This document shows, one piece after another, positions 1 to 63,331 of a stretch of 64,000 nt of DNA. Every line of letters starts with the position of its first letter. The first letter of the stretch is position 1. The DNA lies in NCBI GenBank assembly GCA_947073545.1, contig CAMTMP010000018.1:1-64000 (forward strand). Direction: 5' to 3'. Under the pieces are notes generated by a model. It was not told where the DNA came from, did not search any database, and saw only the letters and a program-made list of their open reading frames with translations. Source of the stretch: an uncultured bacterium. GTDB lineage: Bacteria > Bacillota > Clostridia > Lachnospirales > Lachnospiraceae. Position numbers and translations under genes: made by a program.

Positions 1-144
1 TCGTTCCCGGCATTTTTTGTGCAAAAAATGAAAGCGGAAACGAAGCCATAGGAATAGTTTTCGGACAGTCTGGGGGGTATACTGTCAAGGTATATCTTTA
101 ATCATAGAGGACACCGGAGGAAACAGAGTATGAGGGAGGGAAGC

Positions 145-3100
145 ATGAGGACTATCAATGGAAGACGTATGAGAAAAAGAGCAATGGCCATGCTGCTGGC
201 GTGTGCCATGCTTTTTTCATGCACGGATCTGACGGCGCTGGCGGCGGAGCCGGATGTGAAGACAGAGGTAACGGCGCCCGGCGGGGAATCGGAAGCGGCG
301 GAGCCGGGGAAAGACGATACCACGGATGACAGCGGTGGAGGAATCGGACAACCGGATCAACCGGAGCAGGGAGACGGTGACGAAGAGATTCCGGGCACCG
401 GGGCAGACGGGGAAGGAACGGAAGACCGGCCCGGGACGGAAGATGTCACGGATGAGGATGATACGGGTGCGGCGGACGGAGAGAATGTGACGGACGGGCC
501 GGATGACGATGCGGGTGAAACAGATGAAGGCAGTGTGAACGATGATGCCGATAAGGAAGGGAAAGATGAGTCGGACAAGCCGGACGCCGGTGACGGGGAA
601 GATTCGGAGACCGGACGGGACGAGGAGGAGAGCGTTTCGGACAACAGCGTCTCGGAGAACAGTGTTTCGGAAAACAGTACCGATTCGGAGACAGAGCCGG
701 GATTATCCATGCAGAGAAATATATCCGTGGAAGCATCCGGAGGGCTGGGAAGCCTTCTTCTGGACGAATTACAGCTTGCGGCACAGGAGGAAGCGGATGC
801 GGCCACAGAGGCATATGGGATTTCAGAGATTAAAGTGGAGGGGACAAAGGCGGAAGCATCCGTTCATGCGGCCGGCGACTGCACAATTGTCGTAAGCGTG
901 TATGAGGAGGGGAGCAATAGGCTTGCAGCCTCCGGACATGCGCCTGTCTGGCAGGGAGAAAGCAGTGTCAGCGTGAAAATAGAGACGGACAGTATGCCGG
1001 AATTTTTTGTGGTAAAGGGCTATCTCGTGGATACGGACAGCCTAAGGCCGTTAAGCAAAGAATACGGTTCTTCTATGTACACGGAAACGATGCAGGCGTT
1101 TCTGAAAAAGACGACGGACGATTTTGACGAGAGTCAGACTGTCAATCTGGATGAGGATAAGACAACAAATTTTGTTGTGGTGAACGACGAAGTTGTACTG
1201 ATCAGAGAGAAAGAAGCCGGGGAAAGCAGTGCCAATGAACTGATTTCCTACGACGAAAGTACGAATACATATGCATTTACCAATGTGAACGACAAGATTA
1301 CCGGGCTGCAGGAGGGCGATATTTTTGTCTATCAGTACAATGAGAGCGATATTTTGCCAATAAAAGTCGGTGATATCCGGCTGGAAAATGAAATAAATGC
1401 AGTGATTACGGCAGTCAATGATGAACTGTGTGTGGAGGATATATTTCAGTATGTCAGAATAGACGAAAATCGTGGTACTGCTGACGCGGAGGAGATCGAT
1501 CCGTCAAAATGCGCGAAAGGGGTTACTTATCTGGGGAGAGGGTCGGAGGCAGGGAGGGCGATAGAAGGATCTGTCGATATACAGCCGGATAGGTTCTCAT
1601 GGGATTTAAACTGGCCGGAAGACGGAGAAGAGGAAAGCGAAGAGCATCCTTTTGGCGCGAAGGGGGATGTAATCGCAGCATTAGGGATCGAAGTAAGCGT
1701 GAAATATTACTTTGATCTCCATCCTATTGATACGCATAAGGAAAGCATATGGCATGTAGACATTGGGATTGTCGGGGATGCGAAGCTGGAGGGAACGATC
1801 AAGCTCTGGGGGGAGGGATCGATTCCGATTTTGATGGCTCCTGTTGAAATAAATACAAATCTGTTGACGGTCAAATATATTCCGGAATTGGTGTGGGGAG
1901 TGGAGTTTGAAGGTTCGCTGAAAACGGAGTTTACAATTTCTGCGGGAATAAAGCTGGGAGAAGACGAGGAGGGTACGGGTCCGTATTTCAACGCGGAATG
2001 GAATACACTGGAGCTGAGTGCTGAACTGAACGGTTATATAGGAATTCAGTTCAATCCGGAGCTAAAGGTACTGGGAATCCTCGAGGCGGAGCTTGAAATA
2101 GGGGGCCGTGGCGGGTTGGAAGTATCTTACGGCGCAGGTATATCCTCTACAACGCAGGAAGAGACTACAAGACATGAATGTGAAGGAGCGTGTATATCGG
2201 GAAACGGATACGTCAGCATTCCGTTTGAGGGCGGACTGAAGATATTGAAATTGAGAGAGGTTAATTTGAATGAGCAGTTTGAACTTTCGGGTGAACTGTT
2301 AAAAGTGTCATTTGGAAATTTTTATTATTCGTTCAAAAATAGACAATTTGGCTGGGGCGAATGCCCGTTTAAAGAATATAAGACACTGGTTATGGTCAGG
2401 ACGCTGTCGGATGAGCTTGTATCCGGCGCGAAGGTTACCATCGAGGGAGCTGATGTTGAGGAAAAAACGAACGAGCAGGGAGTAGCCCTGATCTGGCTGC
2501 CAGGAGGGAGCCAGATGATATATGCTGCATACGAAGGGAAGAACGGTTCCAAACGTATCAATATAGACGGCATCAAGAGCGTAGAAGTGATTCTCGGGAT
2601 GTATGCGGGACTGGGGAAGGATACGGTGACCCAGATATGTCTGGGGCATTTTGACAGAAGTGCGGCGGTTACGAGTGACGGAAGTCTTTATACGTGGGGA
2701 AGCAATGCGCTGGGAAGTCTGGGAACCGGCGGAACCGATGATAAGAGCATTCCCACGAAAGTGATGGATCAAGCAAAAACGGTGCTGTATGGTTCGGAGA
2801 GCGGCGCGCGGACCAGCGCTGCAATCACCGAAAAAGGGGAATTGTATACATGGGGGGAGAACCATCGTAACGCATTGGGCAACGGCACAACAGATAATCG
2901 TTACACACCGGGAAAGATCTTGGACAACGTGAAATCGGTCTGCCTCGGATATTATAACGGTGCGGCAGTGACAAAAGACGGACAGCTGTATATGTGGGGA
3001 GCGAATGGTAGTGGTCAGCTTGGAACCGGAACGACTGTGGACCAGCCGACACCGATGAGGATACTGGCGGATGAGAATGTAAGGGAAGTCGGTCTGGGTA

Positions 3101-6100
3101 CCGATATGACTTTCGGATACAGCGCGGCGGTCACGACAGATGGAAAATTATATATGTGGGGCTATAATGGCCACGGCGAGCTTGGCAATGGCGATACATA
3201 TGGGAAGAGAGAGCCGGTCAGAATCCTTGAAAACGAGAAAATAAAAAAAGTCTGCCTGTCGCAAAGGAATGGATACAGCGCGGCGGTGACCGAAAGCGGA
3301 CAGTTGTATCTGTGGGGCGCTAATTTCTACGGTCAGCTCGGGAACGCTACGACGGCATACCAGACGGAACCGGTCAGAGTGCTGGAAGGGATTAAGGTGA
3401 AGGAAATTGAACTCAGCAGAGGATCAAACGCCGGTGGCCAAAGCGCAGCGATCGCGGAGGACGGCAGCCTGTATCTGTGGGGGAGAAATACATATGGTCA
3501 GCTCGGAACCGGTGATACCGATAATCGCACGGTGCCGTTCCGGCTGGAACAGCTTGGGAAAGTGAAGGCTGTCCGGCTGGGAGAGGATAACACGGCAGCT
3601 ATTACGGAAGGCGGAGAGCTGTATATGTGGGGGCGCAATAGAGCCGGTAAGCTTGGTGATGGAACGACAACGGACAGGCAGGAACCTGTCAAGATATTGG
3701 ACGATGTGGTGTCGGTCGAGGTGCAGGACGCTTATACCGCAGCGGTTACCGTGGACGGCAGCCTGTGGATGTGGGGACTTAATAATAATGGACAGCTTGG
3801 AACTGGCGAAGAGTCATTTACGCCTGTCACAAGCCCGGTCAGAGTCACATTCTCTGCGGACACAGGAGCGGCCGCGCAGCGTATTTTGGAAGGGTATGCG
3901 GCTGATGGGGAAGGCGTTTTATCACCCGCAGGAGAAACATACCTTTATGATGAGGAAGCTTTGGAATCCAAAGAGGCGGCATACGTCTATGTGACGATGC
4001 GGACTGCGTCCTACCCGGAGAATAGCCCGGCGATTACTGCGGACGCGGACAATCCAGCGAAGCAGACGGCTGATTTCTCGGGGCTGAAGCCAAAGGAAAC
4101 CTATAACGTATATGTCATGAAGGACAGGGATGCCATACAGCGTTTTTCCAATGGTAATCTGCTGTATATCATGCAGGCGGTTTCGGGAGAGGACGGAAGT
4201 CTAAGTGTGACGTATGAGATGCGGGAAGCCTGTGCGCAGCCGGATGTATTCTGTGTGGGGATGACCCGGACAGACTTGTCGGCGGCGGAAATAAGCGTGC
4301 CGGACATCATCTATGACGGGGAAGCGCATGTGGCCGAAGCGCATGTGGTCTGCAACGGCAGGACACTCATCGCCGGGAGCGATTTCGAGCTTTGCGGGGA
4401 TGTGCTTGTCTCGGAAATCGGGGAATACAAAGTTCTGGTCAGGGGAACCGGCACTTACTGCGGTGAAAGGGAAGTGACTTTCCGGGTAAAGAATGACGAC
4501 GGCGGCGACCCGGATCAGCCCGACCCGCCGGATCCGGTATACGGCGATGTCCTTCCGGAGGATGTCCCGGCGGATGGCAAAATCCCGGAAGGGCTCTGGA
4601 TTGCGGGCGTTGCCGGGACGGGTTATGACTATACCGGCAAAGCAGTAAAACCGGAGGTGCGCGTTTACGACCATATGACACGGCTGAAAGAAAAGACGGA
4701 CTATACCATCGCATATAAGAACAATACGAAAGCATATGAGACGGTGTACGGGGAGCCGGGATTTGAGGAGAAGAAGGCGCCCACGATCACGGTGACGGGC
4801 AAAGGGAATTATACCGGTAAAGAGATACAGACATTCCGGATCCTGCGTCTGGATATCGGTGCGGGACAGGGGGCTGACGGGACGCCGACGGAGGATACCC
4901 CGTTTGCGGCGGACAATATGACCATTGCCTACAAAAAGGCAGCCCAGAAGCCGGTTCCTGTGCTCCTTTGGAATGACAGGAAATTGAAGAACAAGACCGA
5001 ATATACAGTTGCCTATTTTGACAGTACGGGCGAGAAGAGGCTGGATTCGGTGAAGGAAGAGGGAAACTATATCATCGAGCTTGCGGGGCAGGGCAATTTT
5101 ACAGGTACCAGAAGAATTGGCCTGACCGTCACGGGAAAGCTGAAGCTGATGGGGAAAATGGCCGTGTCGAAAATCCCGAACGCGGTCTATACCGGAAGCG
5201 CCATTGAGCCTGCGGTTACAGTGCGGGACGGGAAAGCACAGTTAAAAGCCGGTGAGCATTACACGGTAGCCTACAGTCACAATACACAGATCGGTACGGC
5301 TTATGCCATTATCACGGGCAAGCCGGAGGCCGGATACAGCGGCACGAAGCGGGTCGGCTTTAAGATCACGGGGACTGCTATAAATAAGGCTGTTGTGACA
5401 GGACTGTCGGGCAGGAGCTTCGTATATGGAGGCATAAACCATGAGCCGGAACTGGCCCTGCGTATTAAGATTGACGGGAAGGATGAGGGGCTTGAGAAGG
5501 GAACGCACTATACGGTATCCTGGCAGAAAAACCGGGATGCGGGAACTGCAACGGTGGTCTTTACGGGAAAAGGCCGTTATACAGGTACTTTGAAGAAGAC
5601 CTTTAAGATCCGGCCGTACAATATCGCGGGGGATGAAAAAGGCCGGATTCACGCGGCGCCGGAAAATGAAGCGGTTCCCTATGCCAAGGGCGGCGCAAAA
5701 CAGGGAGCGGTCGTCACATTCACAAGAGATGACGGCACCACATTGACGCTGGAGGAAGGGAAAGACTATACACTGTCCTACCGGAACATCAACGCGCTGA
5801 GTGACGGAAGCGGCGGGAAGCAGCCGACGATCACGGTTAAGGGAAAGGGAAATTTTGCCGGTACATACAGCCAAAAGCTGACTTATCGGATCGCCACACA
5901 GGATGTGGGCATGTTGACGCTTATGGCGGCTGATAAGACGTATCAGAACAAGAAAAACAATTATGCCACAAAGGTGACAGTCACAGACTTGGACGGTAAG
6001 TCTCTGCGGGCCGGAACGGATTATGAAAAAACGTTTGTGTACACCTATAAAAACGAGACTACTGTGAAAACAGGGACAGCCGCGGACAGCGGTACAGCGG

Positions 6101-6498
6101 TGCGCGCGGCAGGAGAAACGGTAGGCAAAAATGATGTGATTCCGGCGGGAACGGTCCTTCAGGTGAAAGTGACGGCCAAGGATGGCGGTAACTATACGGG
6201 AATATTGACGGGTGAATACCGCATTGCGCAGGCATCCATCTCATCCGCGTCCGTGTCTGCTTCGAAACAGATCTATACGGGACAGGAGATCAAGCCGGAT
6301 AAGAGCCAGTTTACCGTTAAAATCAAGGGAAAACAGGTGCCGGAGGATCAGTGGGAAATCGTGCCGGACAGTTACAGGAACAACGTCAGGAAGGGAACGG
6401 CCAGTGTGATGATTCGTGGCTTGGACAATTACGGCGGCACCAAAACGGTTAAGTTTACCATCAGGGCGAAAGGATTCTTCTGGTGGTGGAGGAAGTGA
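145..6498 (+). CDS. Giant secreted RCC1-repeat surface protein with acidic N-terminal region and C-terminal YTG/GxGNYTG-type repeats
   Basis: Signal peptide-like N-terminus (MRKRAMAMLLACAMLFSCTDLTALAA); at least seven 'LYxWGxNxxGQLGxG' RCC1-like repeats (about 2620-3850); C-terminal repeats with 'GKGNYTG', 'GKGRYTG', 'GLDNYGG'. Alternative start at 130. Confidence 0.85.
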   Translation: MRTINGRRMRKRAMAMLLACAMLFSCTDLTALAAEPDVKTEVTAPGGESEAAEPGKDDTTDDSGGGIGQPDQPEQGDGDEEIPGTGADGEGTEDRPGTEDVTDEDDTGAADGENVTDGPDDDAGETDEGSVNDDADKEGKDESDKPDAGDGEDSETGRDEEESVSDNSVSENSVSENSTDSETEPGLSMQRNISVEASGGLGSLLLDELQLAAQEEADAATEAYGISEIKVEGTKAEASVHAAGDCTIVVSVYEEGSNRLAASGHAPVWQGESSVSVKIETDSMPEFFVVKGYLVDTDSLRPLSKEYGSSMYTETMQAFLKKTTDDFDESQTVNLDEDKTTNFVVVNDEVVLIREKEAGESSANELISYDESTNTYAFTNVNDKITGLQEGDIFVYQYNESDILPIKVGDIRLENEINAVITAVNDELCVEDIFQYVRIDENRGTADAEEIDPSKCAKGVTYLGRGSEAGRAIEGSVDIQPDRFSWDLNWPEDGEEESEEHPFGAKGDVIAALGIEVSVKYYFDLHPIDTHKESIWHVDIGIVGDAKLEGTIKLWGEGSIPILMAPVEINTNLLTVKYIPELVWGVEFEGSLKTEFTISAGIKLGEDEEGTGPYFNAEWNTLELSAELNGYIGIQFNPELKVLGILEAELEIGGRGGLEVSYGAGISSTTQEETTRHECEGACISGNGYVSIPFEGGLKILKLREVNLNEQFELSGELLKVSFGNFYYSFKNRQFGWGECPFKEYKTLVMVRTLSDELVSGAKVTIEGADVEEKTNEQGVALIWLPGGSQMIYAAYEGKNGSKRINIDGIKSVEVILGMYAGLGKDTVTQICLGHFDRSAAVTSDGSLYTWGSNALGSLGTGGTDDKSIPTKVMDQAKTVLYGSESGARTSAAITEKGELYTWGENHRNALGNGTTDNRYTPGKILDNVKSVCLGYYNGAAVTKDGQLYMWGANGSGQLGTGTTVDQPTPMRILADENVREVGLGTDMTFGYSAAVTTDGKLYMWGYNGHGELGNGDTYGKREPVRILENEKIKKVCLSQRNGYSAAVTESGQLYLWGANFYGQLGNATTAYQTEPVRVLEGIKVKEIELSRGSNAGGQSAAIAEDGSLYLWGRNTYGQLGTGDTDNRTVPFRLEQLGKVKAVRLGEDNTAAITEGGELYMWGRNRAGKLGDGTTTDRQEPVKILDDVVSVEVQDAYTAAVTVDGSLWMWGLNNNGQLGTGEESFTPVTSPVRVTFSADTGAAAQRILEGYAADGEGVLSPAGETYLYDEEALESKEAAYVYVTMRTASYPENSPAITADADNPAKQTADFSGLKPKETYNVYVMKDRDAIQRFSNGNLLYIMQAVSGEDGSLSVTYEMREACAQPDVFCVGMTRTDLSAAEISVPDIIYDGEAHVAEAHVVCNGRTLIAGSDFELCGDVLVSEIGEYKVLVRGTGTYCGEREVTFRVKNDDGGDPDQPDPPDPVYGDVLPEDVPADGKIPEGLWIAGVAGTGYDYTGKAVKPEVRVYDHMTRLKEKTDYTIAYKNNTKAYETVYGEPGFEEKKAPTITVTGKGNYTGKEIQTFRILRLDIGAGQGADGTPTEDTPFAADNMTIAYKKAAQKPVPVLLWNDRKLKNKTEYTVAYFDSTGEKRLDSVKEEGNYIIELAGQGNFTGTRRIGLTVTGKLKLMGKMAVSKIPNAVYTGSAIEPAVTVRDGKAQLKAGEHYTVAYSHNTQIGTAYAIITGKPEAGYSGTKRVGFKITGTAINKAVVTGLSGRSFVYGGINHEPELALRIKIDGKDEGLEKGTHYTVSWQKNRDAGTATVVFTGKGRYTGTLKKTFKIRPYNIAGDEKGRIHAAPENEAVPYAKGGAKQGAVVTFTRDDGTTLTLEEGKDYTLSYRNINALSDGSGGKQPTITVKGKGNFAGTYSQKLTYRIATQDVGMLTLMAADKTYQNKKNNYATKVTVTDLDGKSLRAGTDYEKTFVYTYKNETTVKTGTAADSGTAVRAAGETVGKNDVIPAGTVLQVKVTAKDGGNYTGILTGEYRIAQASISSASVSASKQIYTGQEIKPDKSQFTVKIKGKQVPEDQWEIVPDSYRNNVRKGTASVMIRGLDNYGGTKTVKFTIRAKGFFWWWRK

Positions 6499-53374: not shown

Positions 53375-54913
53375 ATGAGGAATACGGAAAACATGGAAAA
53401 TGCAGCAGTAATGGAGAATGTGGAGGACATGGAAGATACAGTCCGGACAAAAGAAATGGAAATGAGGCGAAAGGATTATAAAGACCTCATGGCGAAAGGC
53501 CATGTCAAAATCAATTATAGTGATTATGTAATATTTGGAGATTCAAATTCAGAAAACATCATAGAGGAATCGGATGTGGAATTATGGGCGGGGGCAGAAG
53601 TCTTACCCAGCTTTTCGGTTAAAGCCGTGATAAATAGCGGTGGCATAGACAAACTGACATGGAATAGTAGTGGAAACGTTCTGAACATGAGGAAAACCGG
53701 TAAGATATGGGATCGGGTTGGAGTCAGTTGTTGTTATGATGTCTATGCTGACACGAATCGAATTATGATCTGTTGTGACGAGGATACGCTGAGAAATGCC
53801 AATCCTTTCGGAACCAGATCATTTAAGGCGATTATGGTAAAGGCGGTATATTCCTATATTGTACCGGCATATTCCACCGTTGATCTGACGGTGTCAATGA
53901 ATCTGCACTTTTTCAAACGAGGGGGAGAGACGTCCGTCGCATACATAGGAGGGGTAGTATCAAGTACTGATACATGGACTACGGCAACGAAAAGCAGGAT
54001 CGCCAATTGGGCGGATCATAATGGCGTTATTCAGCCGAGAAACGATAAAGACTGTACAAAAGCACAAAGTAACAGCGAGGATGCCGAGTTTCATTTAGGA
54101 CTCAACGATTATGACTGCGGCGAGCAGAAGAACGATACGAATGAAGCAAAAGTCTGCTATGCGACTTTTTATTTCATGTGTGCCGTAGAACAGGCAAATT
54201 CCATTAACCACAGGCTGCTGATGTTTGACAGAGCGGATGACAAATGGAGCACAAAACTTACCGGAACTTCAACGATTTATTATGATCCCAACGGGGGAGA
54301 GATGGAACAGACACAGCAGACGTTCACGTTTGCACCGGACAAATATACCGCAGTTACGCTATATACGGCACACAGGCAGGGCTATATCCTTTCGGGATGG
54401 TATGACAGGATAGCAGACCGGTGTTATGCGCCAGGCGGTATCTTTACAGAAAACCGGGGTGTCAGGCTGACAGCCATGTGGGTTCCGGCGCAGTCATCTT
54501 ACACAGTGAACCATTTCTTCCAGAATATGGATGGCAGTTATCCGGAAACGCCGGATCGTACGGAACAGTATACGGGTCCCACGGGAGCGACCATTTCTGT
54601 GCGGGTCATGGAGCAGGAAGGGTTCTCCAGTCCGGAAAACAGCCATGTAAATATTTCCGAAGACGGTCCACAGTTTGTCAATTTGTTTTATGAGAGAAAA
54701 CAATATACAATAACATTCCTTGCCAACGGCGGCGTATTCACAAGCGGATATGACATGGAGACAGAGGATTTCATGTATGAAACGCCGGGAACCCAGATGA
54801 TGTATCCAAGGGTGGTGTCAAGGGAGGGCTACACTTATAAATGGTCAAATACATTATCGAAGATGCCTGCCGAGGATGTCACGGTAAGAGTGATCTGGAC
54901 ACCAAAGAAATAA
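53375..54913 (+). CDS. Signal-less protein with unknown N-terminal domain plus InlB-type (Listeria-Bacteroides) repeats
   Basis: N-terminal 250-aa domain homologous to next gene; 'YYDPNGGEMEQTQQTFTF...GYILSGWYDR' and 'ITFLANGGVFTSG...REGYTYKW' B-repeat motifs; no signal peptide or TM. Confidence 0.8.
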   Translation: MRNTENMENAAVMENVEDMEDTVRTKEMEMRRKDYKDLMAKGHVKINYSDYVIFGDSNSENIIEESDVELWAGAEVLPSFSVKAVINSGGIDKLTWNSSGNVLNMRKTGKIWDRVGVSCCYDVYADTNRIMICCDEDTLRNANPFGTRSFKAIMVKAVYSYIVPAYSTVDLTVSMNLHFFKRGGETSVAYIGGVVSSTDTWTTATKSRIANWADHNGVIQPRNDKDCTKAQSNSEDAEFHLGLNDYDCGEQKNDTNEAKVCYATFYFMCAVEQANSINHRLLMFDRADDKWSTKLTGTSTIYYDPNGGEMEQTQQTFTFAPDKYTAVTLYTAHRQGYILSGWYDRIADRCYAPGGIFTENRGVRLTAMWVPAQSSYTVNHFFQNMDGSYPETPDRTEQYTGPTGATISVRVMEQEGFSSPENSHVNISEDGPQFVNLFYERKQYTITFLANGGVFTSGYDMETEDFMYETPGTQMMYPRVVSREGYTYKWSNTLSKMPAEDVTVRVIWTPKK

Positions 54914-54940: not shown

Positions 54941-57487
54941 ATGGATGATAATATAAAAACAATAGCAACGGAGAACAAAAGGCTTGGCGGGGACATGGGA
55001 GAAGTGGACGGCACATTGAAGCCGCTGCTTCAATGCGAATATGTCATGAAGGCTCTGCAGAACGGCAAACATATCAATGACCTGACATGGAACAGCATGG
55101 GCGATAAATCGAATTATAATGCGGACGGTGCGATTAAGTTTCCTGTATGGCACCGGTGTGGAGTAAGCTGCTGCGCTGACGGAAAGAACGAAACGCCGCA
55201 TTATATCGTGGGAGATTATGACAGATGCATAGAAGATACGCACGGTAACAAATACTTTAAGGCAGTCATGATAAGAGGGGAACTCAAGGTTACGGTTCCC
55301 GCCTATACGACGGCATATGTCTATGTCACGATGGCAGCGAGCCTGTTCAAATTTGGCGGAGATACATCAAGCACATGGGTGGGAGGTATTGTTTCGGACT
55401 CCGATTTTTGGAAAACGGTCAAGGACAGCAATCATAATGGGTGGGCAACTTGTGAAAACAGCGGTTTATTGCCGGCTAATGACGAGGATCATGTTACGAT
55501 CATACAAAGCGATAACGAGGATTATTCATCATGCGAGTTGGGAATTGTCAATTACAAGGCTGACGAGATTACCAATGAGACAGAGCAGGAAATCCATCAG
55601 GAGGCAAAACCTGTCTATATTGTATGTACAGTGGAAAAAGCGAGTACCATCAATCAACGACTGATGGTTGTGGATAATATACCGGGCTTGAATACTATAG
55701 ATGCGGACGTCTTGTTCCGGGCGAAGATTATCTATACCGGGGAAGCCGTCGATACGGAGGAAAAGCACGAGTATGTGTTCAGCTATAAACGTCCGACTGC
55801 CGTGAAATTCAGAAAGCCGGAACGCCCCGGATACCAGTTAGGCTGGCTGGAGGAAGCCACGGGAAGATACTATCCGTCAACATGTTATTTTGGCGAGCAA
55901 AGAGGAATCAAACTGACGGCACAGTGGACGGCGCTTTCCGTAGTTTACGATGTGGAGCATTATCTCCAAAAGACGGACGGCACTTATTCCAATGAGCCGG
56001 ATTACATAATAACCGCCAGAAATCTGGCGGATGCCGACGCCTTTGCTCCGGTAAAGCAATATGCGGGTTATGGCAAGCCAAACTGGGAACCGGCGACAGT
56101 TAAGGGAGACGGGAGTACGGTAATCAAATGCTATTATCCCATTTTAGAGTTTCCCATAGAATTTTGTGCCAACGGCGGTACGTTTCGTGAGGACGGAACC
56201 GATTTCCGTGTCTGCACAGAGGTGTATTCCAAACGGCTTATGGTCTTTCCACCGGATTTGAATGCGCGGGAAGGATATAAGTTTGAACGCTGGGAGCCGA
56301 AACTGCCTGACGCTATGCCGGCTAAGAAAGTGACGACAAGGGCGGTGTGGACAAAACTGAACAATTATTATGTGGAGTATGAAGGGGAGGGCGCCACAGG
56401 GGGCGTGATGCCGAGACAGACCCTTGAACTGAACCAGTACCAGAAGTTGGATGCAAATACCTATGTGCGGCAGTACGAGGTTTTATTTGATATTGACGGA
56501 GAGGAGCAGACAAGTTCAAAACGGGCAGAGTATTTGTTTACCGGTTGGGCAAAAGTAAGCGGTGGCCCCAAAGTCTATGATGACGAATCCTTTGTCCGCA
56601 ATCTGACGAACGCGGCAGAAGCCACGGTGACACTTTATGCGGCATGGGAACCGCAGGGAGTCGAGCCGCCCCGCCCTGCGGAGAACGGTTTCTACTTTGA
56701 CGGGTGGTATGAAGATAAGGAATGTAAGATAAGAGCCACAACTGTCGAAGGACAGTATATTCCATCAGAAAATACGACACTGTATGGGCAGATGATAAGT
56801 AAAGAAATACCGGAGATAAGCTGGTATCAGGATGAGCAGGAACCGGTTGAAACACGAAGGATTTATGCCCGGTGGAGCAAAGACAGTAAGATTAAGTCTT
56901 ATGTGGTGCATCTGTTTTGCAATGAGGATGAGGTTTACTTTAATGCAAATATATTGCCGGATGGCGCTGAGTTGTTGGAGCAAGGCGGAATTTCCGTTAA
57001 AACGCCAGAGGATGATTCCGACATGGTACTTGTTGATATGACCGAAATCTTTAAGGAGAATACGAACGGTGGGGTATATACATTTACGGTACAGCCTCAG
57101 ATAGAGGGCGTTGTGACGAGCCCCTGCGGGGATGCGGAAATTACAGCATTGGCAAGACCGGAGAATTTGGGCTGGCAAGAGCCGTATACTGCGGTATGGG
57201 ATGGCGTTGAAGAGGCGGAGTATTATTTATTGTGGATGGTTGATGAAGATGGGAATTTGCTTAATGATGTTTATGATTTTGGACAGTTAAAAGATGTGTT
57301 GAAAGTAAATGAACAAAATCGTATTGTGGTATATGCCAGTGGAAATGCAGAGGAAAGTATAGATCTGAGTGTAGTTTTTGATTTGACACTTATGTCGATG
57401 AGTTATCAAGTGTTGGCATATAGTGACCAAAAAAATGTATATACTCCGCAATATGATAAACCAACGAGTGTAGTCACTTCTTGGTAA
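54941..57487 (+). CDS. Paralogous signal-less protein with unknown N-terminal domain, multiple InlB-type repeats
   Basis: Shares LTWNSxG...GVSCC...FKAVMxx...VPAYxT...FGGxTSxxxxGGIVSxxDxW with 53375-54913; repeats 'FCANGGTFREDG...EGYKFERWEPK', 'YLFTGWAKVSGG', 'FYFDGWYEDKECK'. Confidence 0.8.
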   Translation: MDDNIKTIATENKRLGGDMGEVDGTLKPLLQCEYVMKALQNGKHINDLTWNSMGDKSNYNADGAIKFPVWHRCGVSCCADGKNETPHYIVGDYDRCIEDTHGNKYFKAVMIRGELKVTVPAYTTAYVYVTMAASLFKFGGDTSSTWVGGIVSDSDFWKTVKDSNHNGWATCENSGLLPANDEDHVTIIQSDNEDYSSCELGIVNYKADEITNETEQEIHQEAKPVYIVCTVEKASTINQRLMVVDNIPGLNTIDADVLFRAKIIYTGEAVDTEEKHEYVFSYKRPTAVKFRKPERPGYQLGWLEEATGRYYPSTCYFGEQRGIKLTAQWTALSVVYDVEHYLQKTDGTYSNEPDYIITARNLADADAFAPVKQYAGYGKPNWEPATVKGDGSTVIKCYYPILEFPIEFCANGGTFREDGTDFRVCTEVYSKRLMVFPPDLNAREGYKFERWEPKLPDAMPAKKVTTRAVWTKLNNYYVEYEGEGATGGVMPRQTLELNQYQKLDANTYVRQYEVLFDIDGEEQTSSKRAEYLFTGWAKVSGGPKVYDDESFVRNLTNAAEATVTLYAAWEPQGVEPPRPAENGFYFDGWYEDKECKIRATTVEGQYIPSENTTLYGQMISKEIPEISWYQDEQEPVETRRIYARWSKDSKIKSYVVHLFCNEDEVYFNANILPDGAELLEQGGISVKTPEDDSDMVLVDMTEIFKENTNGGVYTFTVQPQIEGVVTSPCGDAEITALARPENLGWQEPYTAVWDGVEEAEYYLLWMVDEDGNLLNDVYDFGQLKDVLKVNEQNRIVVYASGNAEESIDLSVVFDLTLMSMSYQVLAYSDQKNVYTPQYDKPTSVVTSW

Positions 57488-57499
57488 GGAGATGGATTT

Positions 57500-60400
57500 A
57501 TGAAACGAAGAAGGCAAAGAAAAAAACACCGCTTTTTTGCTGCTTTACTCTGTTTTTGTATGCTGTTTACGATGCCGGGAATACAAAATGTATTCCCGGT
57601 AATTGCGGCAGGACAGGAGGAAAGTTTTCGACAAGAAAGTATTATTACGGCATTTGATCCTTTATCAGAGGAAGTTAAAGAACAGACTGTATTCACGGGA
57701 ACGGACAGGTGTGAGTTAGATTTGCCCGAAGAATTAACAGTCTATTTGTTGCGGAAATCCTCCGAACAGAAAGCGGAAGAAAGCGAACAGGAAAATATTG
57801 GGGAAACCAATGATATAGAGAAAAATTCTGATACAGAAACTAGGGACGAACAGCCGGAGGATGACGGTGAATCAGCAGAGAAAACGGACGAAACAGACAC
57901 CGAAGATGAAGAAGGCGGTACAGGGGAAAGTGTGCCCGTAGAGGAACAGGGTAAAAGCGAAACCGAACAGGAAAGTATGCCCTCGGAGGAACAGCAGGAA
58001 AGTGCGCCCGCACAGGAAACCCATACCGTCACCATGCAGGAATATCTAGCGGAGAATGTGATTCCCGTGCAGACCTTGGAGGACACACAGACAGAAAAGC
58101 AGGAAGAAACCGTTACGATAGACGGTGTGACATGGCAGTCTGAGCCAGAATATGACGGAAGTATGGAGGGAACATATACCTTTACCGCTGTTTTGCCCGA
58201 TGGCTATACACTGGCGGAGGGTGTCAGCCTGCCGGAAATTATGGTAACGGTAGAGAGCGGCATAGACGCTATCATACAGACATTGCGCGACCGGATAGCG
58301 GCACTGCCGGATGCGGAAGAATACCTTGCCTTAGAACCAAATATGGAGGATGAGGATGCCTATGCGGAATGGGAGGAAAAGCTGTATGTGTACGCAGAAG
58401 AAACACTTGCCATTTGGGAGGAATATGAGGCGCTGACAGAAGAACAGAAGGCGCAAATGTCAGAAGAAGAACTGATAAAACTGACGGCATGGGTGGAGAT
58501 TGCGGAAACACTTGCAGAAAGCAGTCAGGTCATGGCGGCAGATGGTGTTTCGCACACGCATTGTTTCTGCGGCGGAAATATAAATGCGGGAGACCATACT
58601 AATACTGACCATACAAATGATTTTGCGTATAATAAGATTCTTACTTCAAATGCCAGTAATAAGCTCCTGATTGATGGGATAGTGAAGGAGAATTATACCC
58701 TTACATCGGGGAGTTATTATTTGGGGGATGATGTAACACTAAATTCGGAGCTTATCATTGAAGATAATAGTACAGTTTATATTTGTCTGAATGGAAAAAA
58801 ATTAGAGAATATTAACACAACGGGGTGTGTTATTTGCGTAGGAAAAGGCAGTACCTTCACGCTTTGCGATTGCGATAATAGCGAAAAAGGATGTATTAGA
58901 GAAGGAAAGGGACATACTGATACTGATGGAAAATTTCGTGGTGGAGCAATATATATGTACTCTAAAGCCACATTTAATATGTTTGGTGGAGTAATTATAC
59001 AAAATGAAGCTGAGAATGGTGGCGGCGGAATTTATTCCGCTGGTAACGCTGATGAGTTTTGTACATTTAATATGTATGGTGGAGAAATTATAAATAATTC
59101 TACTAAAGGGCAGGGAGGGGGAATACTTACTTTAAAAACCCATATAAAAATATTCGGAGGTAATATTGAGGAAAACACTGCTGGTACTCAAGGTGGAGGA
59201 ATATATGTGGATGGCGATATAACAATATCGGACGCATCTATTATCAATAACAAAGCTAATCAACTTGGCGGTGGTCTATGTTCTGGGCTGAATGCAGTGC
59301 TCTCTATATCTGGTGCGGTAGATATTTCTGGCAACACGGGTAAGAATGGTGCAGTAGATAATGTTTTTTTAAGAAATAACGTGTTGATTAATGTTATCAG
59401 TAATTTAGAAGGCTCGTCCATTGGAGTTAATGTACAAATGTCGCCGACACCGACAAAACCTGCTCCTGTACAAGTGGCAGGTGGAAAAGAATATGGAATC
59501 ACGGCTGCTGACTGGAGTTGCTTTTTTAGTGATAAAGATGGCTATGAGATTTTGTGGAAGGAAACAACAGATAATTCGGGAAAATCACTCAATGAGTTAT
59601 GGCTGGCTTTACCGGGAAGCTGCGACCTCGGAGGGTTTGACCTATCGGCAAGTGGTGCAACGCTTTCTCCGTCATTTGATCCGGACACTACAAGATATAC
59701 CTCGACGGTTGCTAACAGCGTTGATGAAGTCGGTATTACGGCAACACTGGCAGATACGGCGGCAGGGGCAGACATTACAATCAAAATTAACGATGGTACG
59801 GCAGAAGAAATGGGAAATGGGGTGCCGAAAACAGTTAATCTTGTCGAGGGCAAGAATACGATTGCAGTTACCGTAACTTCCGGCGGAGTGTCGAAAATAT
59901 ACACCATTGAGATTACAAGGGAAGAAGCTCCGACTGGTTTTACTGTTACTCTCAACGGCAATGGTGGCAGCGCCGGAACGAATGTTACTTCCTATGTTCC
60001 GGGAACGAAAGTAACATTGCCGATAGACTGGACGAAAACGGGCTATGAATTTGCAGGCTGGTACGACAATGAGAACTGCACTGGAACAGAAGTAAAAGAG
60101 ATTTCTGCCACAGCGACCGGGGACAAGGAATATTGGGCAGGCTGGACGCCCAACACCTATCAGGTGACATTTGATTACCACGGCGCAGACGATGGAAATA
60201 CCACCGCGAGCAAAAACGTGGCTTACGACAGCAAATATGGCGCACTCCCCATGCCTTCCAAAAGAGGATATACCTTCAAAGGCTGGTACACCGAAGCGGA
60301 CGGGCAGGGCAGTGAAGTCGATGCGGACACGGTTGTAACGAAAACCTCCGACCATGCCCTTCATGCTTGGTGGAAGGATGAGACACCGCCCAATAAACCC

Positions 60401-63331
60401 GTGCTGCAGGATGGCGTGACCCTGCCTGCGGATTGGACAAATGCACAGAACAAAATCCCGCTGAAGCTGTATGACGGCGTGGGTGTGACCGGGCTGATGG
60501 TAAGCGTTGACGGAAGTCCTTTCGCAGAAGTAAACGGTTTTCCGGGTGGAACAGGCAGCGTGCTTTATGATTACGCCCCTGTTCCGGAGGGAGAGCATAC
60601 TTATCAGTTTAAGACAAAAGACGCGGCAGGCAACATTTCCGCTGCAAGTGATATTTTTACGGTCAGACTGGATAAGAAAAAACCTGTGATCGGTACGCTC
60701 ACTTACGAGAACAAGGCAAAGGACTTTTTGAACTGGATTATCGGCAAAAAAAGTATGATTGTCCATGTGCCTGTCACGGATGAGGGCAGCGGCGTGGAAA
60801 AGATCAGCTACACACTGACGCCGAGAAACGCAGACGGCGGCCTTGACGGAAGCAGCGCGGAGACAAAGACAGCGGCGGTTAAGGTTGGGGGGGGGGTAGA
60901 AATCACATTTGATGTTGATTTCAGAGGAACCATTGCCATAGGCTGTACCGACAGGGCGGGCAATGCCGCTGACAGCGTAACCATAGGTACGGCAGGCGCG
61001 GGCGGCGTGATCGTGGAGGATACCGCGCCGGAGATCACCGCTGATGTAAGAGCGGAGTATTACGATACCGCCGAGGATATCCATGTGACGGTAAAGGATG
61101 ACACGAAAAATGCTATCACAGCGGGAATCGCCACTGTCACCTATCAGGTCGGGAATGACACGACAAAGTCTGTCACCTTTGATACAAGTGTATTGCAGGC
61201 AGAGATTACCTTTACCGTCCCTGCATCAGAGATATCCACGGGCGTCACGGAAATAATGTGCAGCGCCACGGACAACGCCGGAAATGAAGCGTCAAAGCGC
61301 TTTATCGTAAAGGTCAAAGGACCGGAGAAAAAGCCTGCGGCGGCAATCGATTATCGGGAAGAAAAGTTGAAAAACCTCGTGCCCGGTGAAAAATACGCCA
61401 TAGACGGGACGGAATATACAGCGGACGGGGAAGGATGCATACCGATCGCAGAGGGCTGGTTTGACAGTACCCTCAGCATCATCAAAAAGGGCAGCGGCAG
61501 TGAGACCACAGACAGTCCGGCGCAGAGTCTTCCCATCCCGGCAAGACCCGCAAAACCCACACCTACGGGCGCAGATGTGACTACGCCAGGGGGGACGGGA
61601 AAGCTGACCGGACTGACAGCGAATGTCACCTACGAGATTTCCACGGACGGCGGCAAGACGTGGGTGAGCGAGACGGCAAACGGAAGCGGCGAGATCACAG
61701 GGCTTGCACCCGGCACTTATGTGGTGCGTGTAAAAGCCGGAGCCGCAAACTTTGCCAGTGAAAACAGCGATTCCGCGAAGATAAACGCCTATAAAGTCAA
61801 AGTGACCTTTATGGCAAATGGGGAGAAGTATCAAGAGATTACGTTAGATTACGGCACCGACCTGACAGATGTTCCGGCCGTGCCGCCGAAAAAGGACGCG
61901 GGAGACCAGACCTATACAGGCCGGTGGTGCAGCGATGAGCAGGGTACCCCTGCGGTATTCACCGACATCACGGCGGATATGACAGTCTATGCGGTCTACA
62001 CAAAAGTCTATGCGGTTACTATGCAGAGAGGCACAGGCTATACCCTGTCGGCAGAGACAGGCAGTGAAAGCCCCGTCAAGGAGGGCGAAAGCTTTACCTT
62101 CCGCTTTGCGTTAAGCAAGGGTTACCAAAAGACTGCCGGTTTTGCGGTGAAAGTGAACGGTGTCAAAGTGGAACTGACGGCGGCGGAGCCATACACCTAT
62201 ACCATTGCGGACATCCGGGAAAACAAGACCGTCACCGTGGAGGGTGTGGCCAAGAAACCGGAAAAACCGTCAGATCCCGGCGGAGATAAAGACGAGGAGG
62301 ACGACCCGGAACCGGAGGAGTCTACACCGGACACCGGAGACCAGACGCCGGGGAATCCCACACCCAGACCGCCCGTAAACCCGCCGGATACACCCAAACC
62401 GCCTGCACCGGACACTGCATCCATGACGGATAAAGGGCCGGAGGGCAGACCGGAAAGCATACCCGCGGCAGAAAAGGAGCCGGAGGACAGACCGGTCACC
62501 ACACCGAAACAGGAGGAAGCCGGGAAGCCGGAAGAAGAATCCGGAGCAGGCGGAGAAAAAGCGGGCATGCCGGAAGCGGACAGCGCGGATGACCGGACGC
62601 AGGTGCCGGACGCTACAGATTCCGGGAAGCTGTCAGATGGCACGAAGATACAAACGGCGGAAGTGAAGATCGGAAACGGCAAGGTCATCGTGACGGTGGT
62701 ATGTGAGGAAGAGAAGTGTACCGCAGTCGTGGCGGATACCGAAGCAGTCGTAAAGGCGGTACTGACGCCCGGCCGGCAGGAGATCGTAAACAGCGGCGAG
62801 ACCATAGAGATCCGGGTAGACGTGACGGATATTTCCGAAAAGGTGCCCGCACAGGATAAGGAAGTGATCGAGAGAGGCATCGAAGCGTACAGGGAAGAAG
62901 TGCCGGGGCTTGTGCTTGGCATGTACGTTGATATTTCCATGTTCATTAAGATCGGGGATGGAGACTGGAACGCCATCACGGAGACGGATGCACCCATAGA
63001 AGTGGTGGTCAGTATCCCCGAAAAACTGCTGGGTGGCGGCAGAGAATACTACATCATCCGCGCTCATAACGGCGAATATACCTTTATGAATGATTTGGAC
63101 GATGTGCCGGATACCATCACCATCAGCACGGATCTGTTTTCGAGCTACGCTATCGCCTACGTGGAGACAGAAAGCACAGACACAGACGCAGAATGCGGGC
63201 TATGCCATATCTGTCCTACTTTCCTTGGACTATGTTACTTTATCTGGCTGGCGGTTATTTTAGCAGTCATTCTGATCGTGATACTTGTGGTATGGCGCCG
63301 GAGGAAAGAGGAGGCGGAGGAACAGAGTTAA
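57500..63331 (+). CDS. Giant membrane-anchored surface protein: acidic region, polymorphic beta-helix-like GGGI repeats, cadherin-like/InlB B-repeats, C-terminal TM
   Basis: Signal peptide (FFAALLCFCMLFTMPGIQNVFPVIA); GGGIYSAG/GGGILTLK/GGGIYVDG repeats; 'VTLNGNGGSAGTNVTSYVPGTKVTLPIDWTKTGYEFAGWYDNENCTG'; C-terminal 'CGLCHICPTFLGLCYFIWLAVILAVILIVILVVWRRRKE'. Confidence 0.88.
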   Translation: MKRRRQRKKHRFFAALLCFCMLFTMPGIQNVFPVIAAGQEESFRQESIITAFDPLSEEVKEQTVFTGTDRCELDLPEELTVYLLRKSSEQKAEESEQENIGETNDIEKNSDTETRDEQPEDDGESAEKTDETDTEDEEGGTGESVPVEEQGKSETEQESMPSEEQQESAPAQETHTVTMQEYLAENVIPVQTLEDTQTEKQEETVTIDGVTWQSEPEYDGSMEGTYTFTAVLPDGYTLAEGVSLPEIMVTVESGIDAIIQTLRDRIAALPDAEEYLALEPNMEDEDAYAEWEEKLYVYAEETLAIWEEYEALTEEQKAQMSEEELIKLTAWVEIAETLAESSQVMAADGVSHTHCFCGGNINAGDHTNTDHTNDFAYNKILTSNASNKLLIDGIVKENYTLTSGSYYLGDDVTLNSELIIEDNSTVYICLNGKKLENINTTGCVICVGKGSTFTLCDCDNSEKGCIREGKGHTDTDGKFRGGAIYMYSKATFNMFGGVIIQNEAENGGGGIYSAGNADEFCTFNMYGGEIINNSTKGQGGGILTLKTHIKIFGGNIEENTAGTQGGGIYVDGDITISDASIINNKANQLGGGLCSGLNAVLSISGAVDISGNTGKNGAVDNVFLRNNVLINVISNLEGSSIGVNVQMSPTPTKPAPVQVAGGKEYGITAADWSCFFSDKDGYEILWKETTDNSGKSLNELWLALPGSCDLGGFDLSASGATLSPSFDPDTTRYTSTVANSVDEVGITATLADTAAGADITIKINDGTAEEMGNGVPKTVNLVEGKNTIAVTVTSGGVSKIYTIEITREEAPTGFTVTLNGNGGSAGTNVTSYVPGTKVTLPIDWTKTGYEFAGWYDNENCTGTEVKEISATATGDKEYWAGWTPNTYQVTFDYHGADDGNTTASKNVAYDSKYGALPMPSKRGYTFKGWYTEADGQGSEVDADTVVTKTSDHALHAWWKDETPPNKPVLQDGVTLPADWTNAQNKIPLKLYDGVGVTGLMVSVDGSPFAEVNGFPGGTGSVLYDYAPVPEGEHTYQFKTKDAAGNISAASDIFTVRLDKKKPVIGTLTYENKAKDFLNWIIGKKSMIVHVPVTDEGSGVEKISYTLTPRNADGGLDGSSAETKTAAVKVGGGVEITFDVDFRGTIAIGCTDRAGNAADSVTIGTAGAGGVIVEDTAPEITADVRAEYYDTAEDIHVTVKDDTKNAITAGIATVTYQVGNDTTKSVTFDTSVLQAEITFTVPASEISTGVTEIMCSATDNAGNEASKRFIVKVKGPEKKPAAAIDYREEKLKNLVPGEKYAIDGTEYTADGEGCIPIAEGWFDSTLSIIKKGSGSETTDSPAQSLPIPARPAKPTPTGADVTTPGGTGKLTGLTANVTYEISTDGGKTWVSETANGSGEITGLAPGTYVVRVKAGAANFASENSDSAKINAYKVKVTFMANGEKYQEITLDYGTDLTDVPAVPPKKDAGDQTYTGRWCSDEQGTPAVFTDITADMTVYAVYTKVYAVTMQRGTGYTLSAETGSESPVKEGESFTFRFALSKGYQKTAGFAVKVNGVKVELTAAEPYTYTIADIRENKTVTVEGVAKKPEKPSDPGGDKDEEDDPEPEESTPDTGDQTPGNPTPRPPVNPPDTPKPPAPDTASMTDKGPEGRPESIPAAEKEPEDRPVTTPKQEEAGKPEEESGAGGEKAGMPEADSADDRTQVPDATDSGKLSDGTKIQTAEVKIGNGKVIVTVVCEEEKCTAVVADTEAVVKAVLTPGRQEIVNSGETIEIRVDVTDISEKVPAQDKEVIERGIEAYREEVPGLVLGMYVDISMFIKIGDGDWNAITETDAPIEVVVSIPEKLLGGGREYYIIRAHNGEYTFMNDLDDVPDTITISTDLFSSYAIAYVETESTDTDAECGLCHICPTFLGLCYFIWLAVILAVILIVILVVWRRRKEEAEEQS
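60887..60896 (+). repeat. Poly-G(10) homopolymer within coding sequence
   Basis: aaggtt GGGGGGGGGG tagaaatc; in frame as GTT GGG GGG GGG GTA GAA. Confidence 0.9.

Follow-up and report, generated by a model that had tools for sequence, protein, structure and literature searches.

The analyzed window is a 64,000-nucleotide stretch of DNA corresponding to contig C18 of a 4.37-Mb assembly (G000; 94 contigs). Homologous contigs bearing names come from Lachnospiraceae MAGs, so the organism probably belongs to this family. Its forward strand contains a gene for a giant surface protein of 1943 amino acids, which matches List_Bact_rpt (PF09479, 1.2e-27) and a cadherin-like domain (PF12733, 6.1e-14) in Pfam and contains a poly-G tract. 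The features of the locus are as follows.

53375..54913, + strand: gene of 512 aa, second upstream of the tract gene, with a List_Bact_rpt repeat of its own (ORF list, Pfam)
54941..57487, + strand: upstream neighbour, 848 aa, also with one List_Bact_rpt repeat (ORF list, Pfam)
57500..63331, + strand: giant surface protein gene (P0001), 1943 aa, with the Pfam matches given above
57500..57613, + strand: signal peptide-like N-terminal segment MKRRRQRKKHRFFAALLCFCMLFTMPGIQNVFPVIAAG (by eye from the translation)
59660..59923, + strand: cadherin-like beta-sandwich domain, aa 721-808 (Pfam)
60158..60367, + strand: best List_Bact_rpt (Flg_new) repeat, aa 887-956 (Pfam)
60887..60896, + strand: poly-G tract, exactly G10, coding for Gly1130-Gly1132 and the first base of Val1133
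60897..60898, + strand: TA immediately 3' of G10, the genus-wide flank signature
60897..60899, + strand: TAG, in-frame stop once the tract is G9 (recomputed products)
60910..60912, + strand: TGA, in-frame stop once the tract is G11 (recomputed products)
63233..63295, + strand: C-terminal transmembrane (TM) segment at about aa 1912-1932, with RRRKEEAEEQS behind it (by eye from the translation)

The 848-aa gene is separated from the tract gene by a 12-base gap, and the two are probably co-transcribed. At the other end of the window (130-6498), a 2122-aa protein carries many RCC1-type beta-propeller repeats.

The preliminary description of this locus had reported ten G residues read as GTT GGG GGG GGG GTA GAA, and both the exact count and the frame were reproduced in ORF 57500-63331. 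The predicted products for tracts of G8, G9, G10, G11, and G12 are 1136, 1132, 1943, 1137, and 1133 aa, respectively. Loss of one base thus leads to an immediate TAG and gain of one base to a TGA a few codons later, as had been claimed, and either change costs the protein about 806-811 residues, among them the TM segment (about 800 in the earlier estimate). Of these five products, the 1943-aa one alone retains the hydrophobic C-terminal segment with the RRRKEEAEEQS tail, and the assembly carries G10, with the frame open to the anchor. The marks of a poly-G contingency locus include a homopolymer of at least about 8 bases in an ORF, leader, or promoter, a product that is abolished by a one-base change, an excess of tracts over chance, an association with surface or surface-modification genes, and the presence of ON and OFF genotypes. 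The first two are found at the locus itself (G10, with G9 and G11 lacking the anchor), and the other three concern the rest of the genome and its relatives.

Poly-G tracts in the genome and their reading frames

The run was not significant within the 64-kb window alone, since 66 of 100 dinucleotide shuffles had as many G8 matches. Run counts in the window dropped roughly five-fold for each added base (G3, 978; G4, 214; G5, 49; G6, 8), followed by the single G10. The whole genome contains 17 G-runs of at least 9 bases (fifteen of exactly 10, one of 9, and one of 11) and seven G8 runs. Given the five-fold decrease per base and the small number of G8 runs, the fifteen G10 runs cannot be explained as the end of a random length distribution, and the genome shows an excess of tracts over chance. 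In the pooled loci, G7 is almost missing and the lengths peak at G10; these loci were chosen for their tracts, which biases the height of the G10 peak but not the G7 gap.

Genes with tracts in this genome encode four Acyl_transf_3 acyltransferases, a GDPD, a GNAT, an AraC regulator, a BspA-LRR surface protein of 1611 aa with the G tract just behind its signal peptide, and a response regulator with the tract near the gene end. Pyruvate-formate-lyase-like and citrate-lyase-ligase-like genes also carry tracts. Outside coding regions, a tract is located in the leader of a GntR regulator, a C10 run lies within the spacer of the MBOAT gene promoter (TTGCTT-17-TACAAT), and the spacer of another acyltransferase promoter (TTGACT-17-TATTAT) contains a G8 run. 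At 699-2234 of locus L051 (G000:C78), a G10-TA site lies about 220 bases behind an ORF resembling a group II intron reverse transcriptase (putative). Pfam assignments associate the tract genes with surface structures or their modification, and the bias of the tracts toward surface genes is evident in this qualitative sense.

Among the large genes of the window, those examined belong to the normal chromosome (such as mfd, ATP synthase, and Mur ligase), which argues against a location on an integrative element. MutL is full length in this genome and in nearly all congeners, which rules out loss of mismatch repair as the cause; because MutL is intact, slippage may be slow.

Both open and broken frames occur at the tracts. 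The acyltransferase gene C1:14790 is broken at G9, with matches to Acyl_transf_3 profile positions 3-56 before the tract and 61-321 after it in another frame, and this frame is predicted to be open at G10. A second acyltransferase gene (C1:8234) is broken at G11, and gene C7:80608 is out of frame at G10. In other species, Acyl_transf_3 is split at G10 into profile positions 3-98 and 113-322 (L165), and a C5-cytosine DNA methylase (L132, G002:C110, about 3246-4738) is divided by a frameshift at G11 into profile positions 2-211 and 237-322, possibly representing a phase-variable methylome switch. The sampled G-sense coding tracts comprised 34 ON and 21 OFF at G10, 1 and 4 at G9, and 2 and 4 at G11, as assigned by a loose classifier that favours OFF calls. 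ON and OFF genotypes are thus present among the tract genes, in the kind of mixture expected under phase variation. Many of the coding tracts put the gene out of frame at G10 but leave both flanks open, as if the genes were still expressed, and this could also reflect slippage of RNA polymerase or the ribosome on G10, by which G9 and G11 alleles would still give some full-length protein. Phase variation explains the out-of-frame alleles equally well, and the motif occurs irrespective of codon phase as well as in promoter spacers; we therefore consider slippage during expression extremely improbable.

Conservation, gain, and flanking sequence of the tracts in the genus

The pattern HG10HNH is present in 64 of 78 genomes of the genus, at about 312 sites compared with 15 for the same pattern with G12, making G12 about 20 times rarer than G10. 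Several tracts are shared at orthologous positions by two to four species (73-85% nucleotide identity), and the lengths of orthologous tracts differ between species (10/13, 10/12, and 10/11). The leaders of GntR regulators contain G9, G10, or interrupted runs (GGGAGGGGG, GGGGAGGG, and GGGGAGG) ahead of a retained TAAAA or TATAA. In flagellin leaders (L219-L225, L234, and L236), G7, G9, G10, and GGGGCGGGG are found directly before the start codon, and in the arrangement G10-TAAA-ATG the run occupies the Shine-Dalgarno position. At 4947-5310 of locus L127 (G002:C84), an identical sequence borders a scaffold gap on both sides, with G11 on one and G10 on the other, as if a tract of variable length had broken the assembly. 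This hints at a mixed population, although sequencing slippage could also explain it. A similar gap at L158 has G15 on one side and G13 on the other.

Relatives of the 1943-aa protein are encoded in 63 of the 78 congeneric genomes. The nearest homologues have no tract at this site and read K-DGEAEITF where the protein in the window has KVGGGVEITF. The tract in the 1943-aa gene is species-specific, and its three glycines replace a D-G-E motif that probably forms a turn, which makes an ON protein plausible. The preliminary description had named non-G codons in close relatives as evidence against a switch. Such codons do exist here as the D-G-E motif, but the relatives are other species with 64-68% identity, and within this protein family tracts have arisen separately in individual species and at differing places. 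Five further family tracts were found in three species, all at different positions: two homologues in G043, one of them about 4,440 codons long, are each out of frame at G10, and in-frame G10 tracts are present in one homologue in G044 and in two in G073. The occurrence of five further tracts (three ON and two OFF) in three species within one family argues for repeated gain under selection.

These observations also bear on a passive origin, in which the genus would be mutationally prone to G-runs near ten and the tract would slip occasionally without being selected as a switch. Such a hot spot would account for tracts in genes that are not clearly surface-related and in intergenic DNA, for the restriction of the tract in the 1943-aa gene to one species, and for the birth and decay of runs seen in the orthologous GntR leaders. 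It would not readily account for the concentration of tracts in acyltransferases and giant surface proteins, their recurrence at different positions within one protein family, or their maintenance at the same site across species. We regard an unselected hot spot as unlikely, though deserving some weight.

The G10 runs share a distinctive 3' flank. Summed over the table, HG10TA occurs 222 times across the genus compared with 24 for the reversed control pattern, and TA follows 67 of 93 sampled G10 runs (about 70%), from regions not selected for TA, compared with 6-7% of G3-G5 runs. A or T (W) is enriched at positions -8 to -5 and A at +3 to +5, giving TAAAA on the right side. The preference holds in codon phases 0, 1, and 2, in poly-C coding tracts, and in non-coding DNA; being present in every phase, in both senses, and outside genes, it is a DNA-level property, and a codon or stop-codon effect is ruled out. 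Outside the genus, G10-TA sites are rare, although within the family they still outnumber the control. The preference itself is absent from some species of the genus. TA also follows 7 of 15 G12 runs, which makes it a weak candidate for a strict fixer of length ten.

A -10 box is not the general cause of TA because a TTG box at a sensible spacing accompanies only about a dozen of 163 tracts, mostly at a spacing of 19. The arrangement TTGNNN-N9-G10-TANNNT, with a total spacer of 19, occurs at L103, L111, L112, L157, L162, L179, and L303; removal of two G residues from these promoter-like loci would give 17, the usual optimum. TA is the start of the -10 box in a minority of tracts and precedes the start codon in flagellin leaders, and neither role covers the coding tracts. 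The TA flank and the sharp peak at ten are not predicted by slippage alone. The likeliest account, which we offer as a conjecture, is that the flanks affect the ease with which runs lengthen, or else their stability.

A protein or nuclease that recognizes (A/T-rich)-G10-TAAAA and holds the run at ten would also produce such a pattern, making the site a regulatory or recombinogenic element and not a freely slipping tract. The frequency of TA after G10 regardless of codon phase, in poly-C runs as well as in non-coding DNA, the enriched W and A positions, and the rarity of G12 would fit this explanation. On the other hand, tracts without TA exist, some congeneric species show no preference, and tract lengths do vary and break frames. 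Orthologous leaders with stepwise purine runs (GGGGAGG, GGGAGGGGG, G9, and G10) before TAAAA indicate gradual growth with no insertion of a unit, and a mobile element delivering G10-TA as a unit is likewise not supported. We find a recognized element of this kind quite improbable. A small chance may be given to a further speculation, namely that G10-TA is a dedicated hypermutable element whose A/T-rich left side and TAAAA right side recruit or tune a factor setting both the length of ten and the switching rate, so that a single system would serve surface genes, promoters, and leaders while mismatch repair is kept.

A candidate genus-wide poly-G phasome

We propose that the G10 tract in the 1943-aa gene is a slipped-strand contingency locus within a genus-wide poly-G phasome, and we assign this reading a probability of roughly 0.7 on the basis of comparative sequence data. 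The slipped-strand switch suggested in the preliminary description is supported by G10 tracts in surface genes throughout the genome and genus, by sister genes broken exactly at their G tracts, by members of the same protein family with their own G10 in ON and OFF states, and by orthologous tracts that differ in length between species. Counted against the switch are the lack of a tract at this position in homologues from other species and the intact MutL, the length peak at 10, which is sharper than free slippage suggests, the TA preference, which slippage does not predict, and the few tracts in genes that are not obviously surface-related (e.g., the pyruvate-formate-lyase-like gene).

Under the proposed mechanism, replication slippage would now and then add or remove one G, shifting the frame into a stop within a few codons. 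G10 would be the ON state, giving the full anchored 1943-aa surface protein, and the OFF state would yield a fragment of about 1130 residues without the anchor, which may be secreted, released, or degraded. Back-slippage would restore the ON state. The phasome would extend to surface-polysaccharide acyltransferases, giant adhesin-like proteins, flagellin leaders, regulators, and promoters. For the tract at 60887-60896, we infer a useful switching rate, reversibility, and adaptive value under phage, immune, or niche selection.

Campylobacter, Neisseria, and Mycoplasma are well-known examples of G-tract slippage; Campylobacter is not known to possess MutSL. The phase-variable CwpV of Clostridioides difficile is switched by site-specific DNA inversion, unlike the homopolymer described here. 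The present tracts resemble the poly-G phasome of Campylobacter jejuni in that G-tracts occur genome-wide in surface-modification genes that are individually ON or OFF (PMC8437040), while the host belongs to a different phylum and has MutL. CwpV is described as a phase-variable large cell-wall protein with a novel genetic switch, and the present protein is similar in being a large surface protein of a clostridial bacterium (PMC2784873). In Bifidobacterium breve, the sortase-dependent pilus genes bbr_0113 and bbr_1889 contain intragenic G10/G11 tracts in which a one-base slip fuses or splits the ORF, and mixtures of tract lengths, measured with maximum-depth sequencing, changed in the mouse gut (PMC9187656). 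Our case shares with this Gram-positive gut commensal an intragenic G tract in a surface-structure gene (PMC9187656). In contrast to the one or two pilus clusters per genome reported for B. breve, about 17 tracts are distributed here among many gene types, promoters, and leaders; almost every one is exactly ten bases long, and TA follows most of them. They are known from genome sequences, whereas those of B. breve are known from population measurements. The 3' TA signature and the sharp G10 peak are features of the present tract set, which is set apart by these two properties and by the number of tracts in a lineage that keeps MutL. Our literature searches, which did not reach most subscription journals, turned up no publication that deals with homopolymer phase variation in Lachnospiraceae.

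If the proposed reading is true, a species-rich lineage of Lachnospiraceae has a large poly-G phasome of the kind mainly associated with Campylobacter, Helicobacter, and Neisseria. The 3' TA signature provides a simple sequence handle for finding such switches and raises the testable question of how flanking sequences control homopolymer length. Isolates and assemblies of these bacteria would then be mixtures of surface types, which bears on phage resistance, immune recognition, and strain-level metagenomics.
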